From: Pseudorhodoplanes sp. | GTDB taxonomy: Bacteria; Pseudomonadota; Alphaproteobacteria; Rhizobiales; Xanthobacteraceae | DNA length: 44,339 bases | Direction: 5' to 3' | Assembly: GCA_022843165.1 (NCBI GenBank) | Contig: JALHOD010000025.1 | Coordinates: 1 to 44,339, forward strand | In this document: piece by piece, positions 7,849 to 9,762 of the stretch | Position numbering within the stretch: the stretch's first letter is position 1 | Layout: every line of letters starts with the position of its first letter | Translations under genes and position numbers: made by a program | The notes under the pieces: model-generated | Databases searched by the model: none | Told to the model about the DNA's origin: nothing | What the model saw: only the letters and a program-made list of their open reading frames with translations

Positions 7849-8724
7849 ATGACCACGAGCCCCCAAGAACAGGCCCGCATTCTCTCGGAAGCTCTGCCGC
7901 ATATGCAGCGCTATGACGAGGAAACCGTGGTCATCAAGTATGGCGGCCACGCCATGGGCGAGGAGGAAAGCGCCCGGCTGTTCGCGCGCGACATCGTCCT
8001 GCTGGAGCAGACCGCGATCAATCCCGTCGTGGTGCATGGCGGCGGACCGCAGATCGCGGCGATGCTCGACCGGCTCGGCATCAAGTCGCAATTCTCCGGC
8101 GGCCTGCGCGTAACCGACGCCGCAACCATCGAGATCGTCGAGATGGTGCTGGCCGGCTCGATCAACAAGCAGATCGTCAGCCACATCAACCAGGCCGGCG
8201 GCAAGGCCGTCGGGCTGTCCGGCAAGGACGGCAACATGGTGATCGCCCGCAAGGTCAACCCGCAGGCCGGCTCGCCCGCCGCCGATCTTGTCGATCTTGG
8301 GTTTGTCGGCGAGCCGGAAAAGATCGACACCACCGTGCTCGACCAGATTATCGGCCGCGAACTCATTCCGGTGCTGGCGCCGGTCGCCTCCGGCCCGAAC
8401 GGCGAGACCTTCAACGTCAATGCCGACACCTTTGCCGGCTATATCGCCGGTGCGCTCAAGGCCAAGCGCCTGCTGCTGCTCACCGACGTGCCCGGCGTGC
8501 TCGACAAATCGAAGAAGCTGATCGAGAAAATGTCGGTCAACGACGTGCGCAAGCTGATCGCCGACGGCACCATTTCCGGCGGCATGATCCCGAAGGTGGA
8601 GACCTGCATCACTGCGCTCGAACAGGGCGTGGAAGGCGTTGTCATTCTCGACGGCAAGGTGCCGCATGCGGTGCTGCTGGAATTGTTCACCGACCACGGC
8701 GCGGGCACGCTGATTCACAAGTGA
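7849..8724 (+). CDS. argB: Acetylglutamate kinase
   Basis: A 291-residue amino-acid kinase family enzyme that phosphorylates N-acetylglutamate, the second step of arginine synthesis. Visible motifs are the ATP-site VIKYGGHAM (28-36), [10 protein letters not shown] for substrate binding, a central NVNADTFAG, and [21 protein letters not shown] near the C terminus. The ATG is preceded by AAGGA. The gene is separated from engB-DUF423 by a palindromic repeat, so it probably has its own promoter. It is followed by the long structured gene-free region. Confidence 0.97.
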
Positions 8725-8756
8725 TCTGTCCAGCCTCCCCCTTTTCATCTTGCGTC

Positions 8757-8835
8757 ATGGCCGGGCTTGACCCGGCCATCTCGTTTAGGAATGCACTGCC
8801 CGCCTAAGCGGGATCGCCGGCTCAAGCCCGGCGAT
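8757..8835. repeat. REP-like palindromic cluster after argB
   Basis: Three hairpins in 79 bases. ATGGCCGGG/CCCGGCCAT (8757-8765 and 8771-8779, loop CTTGA) has 9 bp. CCCGC/GCGGG (8799-8803 and 8808-8812) has 5 bp. ATCGCCGG/CCGGCGAT (8813-8820 and 8828-8835) has 8 bp. The first resembles the 'cgtcatggccgggcttg' element that I recall as dispersed in Bradyrhizobium-like genomes. It may also act as a terminator or mRNA 3' stabiliser for argB. Confidence 0.75.
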
Positions 8836-8902
8836 AACGGCGGAGAAAAGGCGCGCGTCATCGCCCGTATTGTTTGAGGCGCCGGGATCGCCTTCAGTCT
8901 CG

Positions 8903-9324
8903 GTCCCTCTTTTCACGCGCGCGTCGGGTGTTCCCGATTTCGCGCCACGTAAAAAGTGAGGGGGGACGGCGCGCCGAAAGACGCAGGGCCGTTCCTGATA
9001 ATGCCGCGTTGCGCGAACAACGCAGCCGCCTCTCGGCGCGCCATCGCGGCGAACTCCTTGCGGCGCCGGGCCGCGCTTTTGACGGAGGCCGACCGGGGCC
9101 TCCTGCCATCAGCCAGCTCCTGGCAGAGGCCCGTCAGTGGCCTCGGGCGGAGCCCCGACGCCGCCCGGGTGCGTGGCTGCGAACCACGCCCGCGGGCGCC
9201 GCACCGGCCGAGGGCGGGAATTGCCCGCCGCCGTCCAGGACGGCGATGCGGCGAATCTCCACCGCATCCCGTCCTTCGTCCCGCTCTCACGACGCCTCAT
9301 GACAGCGCCCCTCGGCGGACGAGG
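8903..9324. other. Array of about a dozen perfect hairpins; candidate structured RNA or mobile palindromic element
   Basis: The hairpins (stem arms) run in order. A long imperfect arm pair 8903-8916/8956-8967 encloses TCGGG/CCCGA (8924-8937). Next is 8968-8977/9033-9042 (10 bp) enclosing GCGTTG/CAACGC (9006-9023). Then come GGAGGCC/GGCCTCC (9084-9103), TGCCA/TGGCA (9104-9125), GAGGCC/GGCCTC (9126-9144), CGGGCGG/CCGCCCG (9144-9167), GCGTGG/CCACGC (9171-9189), GGCGGG/CCCGCC (9213-9229), GCCGTCC/GGACGGC (9230-9244), GATGCGG/CCGCATC (9245-9268) and CCTCG/CGAGG (9310-9324). Between 9084 and 9268 almost every base belongs to a perfect stem or its loop. The strand of any transcript is unknown. Function is not assigned. 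Confidence 0.7.
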
Positions 9325-9423
9325 TGACAGGAATATAGTCCGATCCATGAGAAATGTCAACGGGGGCATCTCAAGTCAGCATCATAATTCATATCTGGGA
9401 ATTGGCCGCCGATGGAGGAAACG

Positions 9424-9762
9424 ATGCGCAGGGTTCTTCAAGTATGTGCGATTGCCATTTTCGCATTTTTGGCATCTCAGACAGATTCTCTTGCCGCAAC
9501 ATTCTGTGCAAAATATGCGGACGGATCAGCACTATGTGGCTTCAGTTCGCGTCAAGCCTGCAGCAAGGCGCTGCCGGGAGTCTCGCTTCCCTGCGTTCAG
9601 GTTCAAGCCGGTGCGGAGAAGAAGGCTTCTTTTCGTCTCGCGGCCGATGAGGGGCCGCCCACCGTCCATGGCTGTGGGTGCCGTATTGTCGGCTATGATT
9701 GTGGACCGACACTGAGCGGACTAACGCTGTGCTTGCCAATTCGCGAATGTGGCTGTTGGTAA
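9424..9762 (+). CDS. Small secreted cysteine-rich protein, DUF3551-like N-terminal part
   Basis: A 112-residue protein with a clear signal peptide (MRRVLQVCAIAIFAFLASQ, likely cleaved near SLA-A, residue 25). The start is the ATG at 9424 because GGAGGA lies five bases before it; the ATG at 9412 is part of that ribosome-binding sequence. The mature part holds ten cysteines. The first four follow a pattern like DUF3551 (FCAKYADGSALCGF...QAC...PC). The C-terminal 31 residues contain six (HGCGC, YDCG, TLCLP, ECGC) and are not a DUF3551 feature. Codon usage (TGT, GGA, CTA, ATT) is more AT-rich than its neighbours. It is probably an exported disulfide-rich protein of unknown role. Confidence 0.72.
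   Translation: MRRVLQVCAIAIFAFLASQTDSLAATFCAKYADGSALCGFSSRQACSKALPGVSLPCVQVQAGAEKKASFRLAADEGPPTVHGCGCRIVGYDCGPTLSGLTLCLPIRECGCW

Follow-up and report, generated by a model that had tools for sequence, protein, structure and literature searches.

What do the hairpins crowded into positions 8903-9324 of this 44,339-nucleotide stretch of Pseudorhodoplanes DNA (the window, meaning the whole stretch that was analysed) represent? A preliminary description, made by a model from the letters alone, offered among other readings a large structured non-coding RNA and a non-autonomous mobile element, left the strand of any transcript unstated, and named BLASTN searches and covariation among homologues as checks. 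The comparative analysis described here indicates that the locus is one copy of a conserved structured RNA, running on the minus strand from about 9325 to 8850 and ~480 nt in length. That an RNA gene lies at this locus is very probable; that it is also a resident gene whose product acts in trans is the reading preferred here, at a probability of roughly 0.7 for the two propositions jointly.

Fold, strand and covariation of the RNA

The run of perfect hairpins reported between 9084 and 9268 is real: inverted repeats, exact or near-exact, were found at the stem positions given (9084-9103, 9103-9126 at 82%, 9126-9144, 9144-9167, 9159-9201 at 83%, 9229-9245 and 9245-9268), and 8895-9330 holds 25 inverted-repeat pairs in total. 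The contention that base composition alone would not suffice was likewise borne out, since on both strands the segment 8903-9324 has a better fold than any of 100 dinucleotide-preserving shuffles, with a z-score of -8.51 (-268.1 kcal/mol) for the minus strand and -3.60 (-229 kcal/mol) for the plus strand. Among ten other copies of the class to which the window RNA belongs (class A; 25 shuffles each), the RNA strand has the lower energy in all ten and the lower z-score in eight, the opposite strand having the lower z-score in two.

The hairpins do lie within 8903-9324, but the true feature is longer, reaching from a promoter at 9360-9332 to a conserved 3' pseudoknot at 8894-8854. Read on the minus strand, the sigma70-type promoter consists of the -35 element TTGACA (9355-9360) and, after a 17-base spacer, the -10 element TATATT (9332-9337); transcription would start near 9325, and the RNA would end near 8850. 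The 5' module (9276-9323) is an outer stem, CTCGTCC/GGGACGA, enclosing an inner hairpin; the window version differs from one other aligned copy (L134) solely in flanking bases, and the sister class B has a like module. Two class A copies of the sister species (L097 and L098, genome G007) bear extra hairpins inserted in this module. Next come hairpins confined to the long variant of the RNA (9207-9274) and the conserved core (9108-9206), which is defined by alignment A1 and covariance model R1 (40 copies) and is made up of a variable hairpin, a CGGGGCTCCG element, a covarying hairpin at 9126-9144 and a hairpin at 9112-9124 with a conserved GGAGC loop; the window core scores 105 bits against R1. 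A variable hairpin (9084-9103), a motif AAAGCGCGGCCCG (9067-9079) that by eye is strongly conserved across class A copies, a long 3' stem-loop predicted by RNAalifold (8965-9045, arms 9034-9045 and 8965-8976) and a variable hairpin region recognised by eye (CCCCCTC...GAGGGA, 8904-8964) lead to the 3' pseudoknot (8854-8894), common to classes A and B, in which the loop CCCG of a GGCG-loop-CGCC hairpin pairs with a downstream CGGG. The extra hairpins, the hairpin at 9084-9103 and the long 3' stem-loop carry no formal pair count, several modules being delineated by eye or by folding alone. At the window locus no clear terminator was seen past the pseudoknot. Immediately downstream of the RNA lies a separate element (8752-8841) of REP-like inverted repeats (GATGGCCGGG.../...GCCGGC), pieces of which match ~twenty further places in the genome.

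Compensatory change among homologues is strong in the 40-core alignment. In A1, 97.7% of cells are paired, vs 82.6% after shuffling and 28-50% for slid structures, and double changes occur in 13 of 23 pairs, with 128 double-change cells vs 36.0 in shuffles; the slid controls are the more telling, because kinship of the sequences inflates shuffle-based counts. The core could be located in 56 of 63 class A copies and not in the other 7; A1 comprises 40 non-redundant sequences of 50 extracted cores, 10 having been removed at >=97% likeness, with L143a, L146a and L110b set aside and L148a, L149a and L151a failing the end pattern. One constant GGGC segment of the core admits an alternative pairing that scores equally well. 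In the 5' module (A3, 39 copies), 97.4% of cells are paired vs 84.8% in shuffles, and there are 76 double-change cells vs 20.8, counts that may be flattered in that six apparently mis-anchored or divergent rows were cut by eye and seven near-duplicates taken out to leave 39 of 52 anchored 5' ends. For the 3' pseudoknot (A2, 39 sequences from both classes), pairing between loop and partner is 100%, the variable position being G-C in 25, C-G in 13 and a gap in one; these are 39 of 40 tails chosen by regular expression, with the loop as CCC[CG], the partner as [GC]GGG and the two sides fixed independently.

The same alignments indicate the strand. Over 24 core pairs there are 26 G-U cells and a single A-C cell, and because of this 26 to 1 excess the minus strand is taken to be the RNA; in the 5' module, 33 of 39 copies have a G-U at one of the inner pairs. 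A repeat acting purely as DNA, through protein-binding palindromes and with no RNA function, would suit the high-GC palindromes and a genome in which REP-like repeats are common, but DNA palindromes would not favour one strand, and both wobble counts make such a repeat extremely improbable.

A protein-coding reading is rejected on the grounds of frame-breaking indels and stops among the copies: of 74 indels counted between the members of 17 close pairs (the same indel may count in several pairs), 68 have a length not divisible by three, and each frame contains stops in 20 to 22 of 23 copies. A basic peptide can be read in one frame around AAAGCGCGGCCCG; inserted hairpins and frameshifts among the copies tell against it. 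Several hundred nucleotides in length, with a multi-helix covarying fold and no conserved frame, the feature has the makings of a large structured non-coding RNA, and this part of the preliminary description thus gains support from covariation, strand-specific wobble pairs, a promoter and non-coding indels.

The remark that no known structured RNA could be recognised also agrees with the database searches, Rfam 15 giving no gathering-score match for either class. Over the whole window the gathering score was reached solely by a tRNA at 11-84; 8700-9450 gave seven sub-threshold matches (E up to 10), the best at E 0.058, and nine loci of both classes gave none. No account of this RNA family was found in the portions consulted of the open-access main texts (PMC4842269 included), and the family is apparently undescribed so far.

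Copies, classes and promoters

A DNA-level search found similar copies in the window's own genome (G000) and in relatives. With 8725-9420 as DNA query, the own genome gave nine further strong matches (E 3e-56 or better) and weaker ones; some of the strong matches may be halves of one copy, because four sit at or near contig ends. DNA-level matches occur in 50 of 150 related genomes (own included) and 31 of 103 genera, and ten genomes scored more deeply contain 2 to 17 DNA-matching pieces and, by covariance model, 4 to 16 class A cores each. By covariance model the own genome has 13 class A cores and 8 class B cores.

Class B was discovered through a search for TTGACAATATTCCTA sites. Its promoter is of the class A type, and its 5' module and tail are class A-like; the core differs, being a predicted three-way junction (A4: 24 of 29 class B cores, 35 pairs, 11 of them with double changes). 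Sister RNAs of this class in the own genome include L201 (G000:C19:47630), L296 (G000:C4) and one at G000:C6:209086.

Among 198 genomes of Xanthobacteraceae, model R1 (class A) finds matches in 107, spread over 32 of 47 genera, and model R2 (class B) in 101, over 25 of 47 genera; either class is present in 142 and both in 66, and in several genomes all 16 of the candidates scored were matched by R2. The RNA does not appear essential to the family, because 56 of the 198 gave neither class at the threshold used, with filters that lose weak matches. On 297 genomes sampled from the order, R1 matched five: besides the own genome and its family member G033, three genomes from other families. One of these three, the 2.5 Mb genome G334 (L297), has eight class A copies, which suggests transfer or ancient presence. 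An exact-pattern scan of named genomes returned 20 stretches, two of which held the RNA (L059, Pseudorhodoplanes sp.; L060, Alphaproteobacteria AP_29). In genus g25 (6-9 Mb genomes), probably Bradyrhizobium, in whose genomes such a repeat occurs, R2 matches 10 of 10 sampled members and R1 none of 10. Two class B copies of this genus (L279 and L280) have different upstream sequence, a third type with AAAATATTC ... CTCCGCC.

The promoter at 9360-9332 is not peculiar to the window. A strict pattern (TTGACN, 16-18 bases, TA[TAC][AT]) precedes 30 of 46 anchored class A copies, 17 of the 63 copies having resisted anchoring, vs 11 of 18,900 random windows; of the other 16 of the 46, some are near misses, and in some genera the copies share a different upstream sequence (AAAAAAAGTTATCCCCGC and variants). 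At six class A loci (L116, L118, L127-L129 and L297) the TTGACA promoter is replaced by this second type, in which AAAAAAAGTTATCCCCGC or a variant is followed by CTTATC or a similar sequence. In copies with near-identical bodies the flanking and spacer bases differ. The TTGACAATATTCCTA sequence has 26 sites in four genomes of the genus (<=1 mismatch), with none for a reversed control, and 23 of the 26 precede RNA copies (8 of 11 sites read directly, 15 by coordinates). Two of the remaining sites have no RNA, and one (L212, G005:C1:3882205) places the RNA promoter and a truncated 5' module before a ROS/MUCR regulator gene at 1501-2118 (Pfam PF05443, E 1.9e-50). Some RNA promoters are overlapped by a palindrome, TTCCTA-N0-3-AGGANTATA, which has 26 sites, 25 of them assigned to RNA copies by coordinates and the other, L321, by its tail, vs one site for the control, and which is present in 7 of 20 genomes only. 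Because the palindrome overlaps their promoters, the RNA genes bearing it may answer to a common regulator.

Neighbours, positions and homogenisation

A minor rival reading is that the RNA serves its neighbours in cis, as an attenuator, terminator or processing signal. The window RNA is convergent to argB and lies beside a small divergent ORF, and the L212 promoter and truncated module precede a regulator gene, arrangements that a cis-acting role would accommodate. Most anchored copies, however, have a promoter of their own, neighbours are unrelated between copies, and the RNA is, in our judgement, too long and elaborate for a terminator, so that a cis-acting role is highly unlikely. The divergent ORF (9412-9762, plus strand) encodes 116 aa, is cysteine-rich and has no Pfam match.

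When the ORFs surrounding the 63 class A copies (60 loci) were clustered, no neighbour family reached more than six loci, except for spurious ORFs within the RNA and for a cluster of 13 loci, scattered in place, that resembles ABC ATPases. Among the 120 nearest flanking ORFs of these class A copies, chosen by length and some of them spurious, no Pfam family occurs more than twice in the best 25 of 95 families, and no recurrent transposase, integrase or reverse transcriptase was found beside class A copies. An integrase-core (transposase-type) gene, the sole such gene among the families listed, is the nearest upstream ORF of one G007 copy (L092, 8655-9578). Plasmid and phage collections gave no match for one class A copy and none for one class B copy, and two exact-pattern scans of viral contigs were likewise negative. 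A class B 20-mer did hit 13 viral contigs; these share one sequence with no other feature of the RNA, by eye a phage structural gene, and a phage link through it was discarded.

The main rival to a resident, trans-acting RNA gene is a selfish non-autonomous element, whose RNA would be the active part, slowly copied by an enzyme encoded elsewhere and keeping its structure for the sake of copying. Multiple, dispersed copies with a patchy distribution, eight of them in a genome of another family, and the copy adjoining an integrase-core gene would fit such an element. So would the argB-CHAP site, at which the RNA is present in G000 and its sister species G007, the interval is short (about 50-130 bases) in G001, G003, G004 and G005, and other sequence occupies it in G006, G002 having no argB match. 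Because this site has no RNA in five congeners, positions of the RNA must turn over in the longer term; by eye, no clean junction could be aligned in the comparison with these five.

Of ten G007 loci compared, six have two or more neighbours in common with a G000 copy, in two cases on both sides, and copies are for this reason regarded as positionally common to the two genomes. Mean identity of the RNA bodies is 86.6% within G007 and 83.7% within G000, and between the two genomes it is 74-81% at five shared positions and 76.9% at other pairs. In a tree, class A copies group by genome, with 10 label changes vs 32.2 after shuffling (one each for G007, G005 and G062, two for G019 and three for G000); G003 is scattered, 24 of 500 shuffles being as low, and the tree, whose bootstrap had not stabilised, omits L143a, L146a, L148a-L151a and L110b. 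Copies resemble others of their own genome more than their counterparts at shared positions; the pattern is that of concerted evolution, in which copies would be homogenised within genomes.

Recent spread of a selfish element could also explain likeness within genomes. At the five shared places, however, upstream flanks differ and promoter hexamers are largely kept, which fits conversion of resident genes and not new insertions; the shared neighbours of the six G007 loci, the lack of any recurrent neighbour gene family and the empty plasmid and phage searches weigh in the same direction. The selfish element is a doubtful reading, though the weightiest of the rivals, and the mobile-element claim of the preliminary description survives in part: the feature is multi-copy and one of its sites has no RNA in five congeners, but active mobility is not borne out, given six copies at positions common to two species and neighbours without a recurrent gene family.

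At the level of sequence, the fold, strand, promoter, multi-copy state, positional sharing (in one species pair), homogenisation and a sister class with like ends can be regarded as established. On the preferred reading of a resident RNA gene, the housekeeping RNA polymerase would read it leftwards from about 9325, probably strongly, to give the ~480-nt untranslated structured RNA; this would act in trans, either as a free molecule or by scaffolding a ribonucleoprotein or an RNA assembly, and many copies would be kept for dosage, like ribosomal RNA genes. Bacterial regulatory RNAs are not usually maintained in multiple, homogenised copies, and such maintenance suggests a structural role that depends on dosage. 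More tentatively, and with slightly less than even confidence, we propose a so far undescribed RNA superfamily in which two types of core are set between similar 5' and 3' ends. Each genome would keep some four to upwards of twenty homogenised copies under dedicated, partly operator-controlled promoters, and the product would form an abundant RNA or ribonucleoprotein of structural function in Xanthobacteraceae and relatives, probably including Bradyrhizobium. Provided that transcription is as predicted, these genes would rank among the more numerous of those for non-ribosomal RNA in a very large group of soil and plant-associated bacteria, apparently overlooked so far because they resemble GC-rich intergenic repeats. 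The two covariance models, R1 and R2, offer handles for RNA-seq, probing and pull-down.

Comparison with known systems

Repeated structured elements have been described in related bacteria. Br-REP1, Br-REP2 and BjsR1-10 of Bradyrhizobium japonicum are structured intergenic elements or sRNAs that are repeated or present in multiple copies, the consensus units of Br-REP1 and Br-REP2 being 20 and about 40 bases long (PMC5082802). Neither full consensus was present, within the allowed edits, in 56 class A copies or eight class B loci; a 15-base piece of Br-REP2 occurs in one copy and two whole loci. One of the BjsR RNAs may be identical with class B. The present family shares its order of origin with the Rhizobiales-1 motif, another candidate RNA (PMC2864571).

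In a 50-genome survey of non-coding RNAs, mobile or repeat candidates are often associated with transposases, integrases and the like, and the example quoted is a single long stem (PMC11109978). These candidates resemble the present family in being structured motifs with multiple copies per genome, but here one integrase-core gene occurs among 120 flanking ORFs (in the best 25 of 95 families). Sponges of the CsrB/RsmZ type are marked by many repeated GGA hairpin loops; in the core of the present RNA, inspection by eye picked out one conserved GGAGC-loop hairpin.

The large RNAs OLE, GOLLD and ROOL are several hundred nucleotides long, with many helices and no coding function, and they are usually single-copy or linked to particular genes or to phages. 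Carriage on phages or plasmids in the manner of GOLLD and ROOL was not found with one copy of each class as query. In length, number of helices and non-coding character the present RNA is like all three (PMC12286853), and it differs from them in having no gathering-score Rfam match, in its many dispersed copies per genome and in their concerted evolution.
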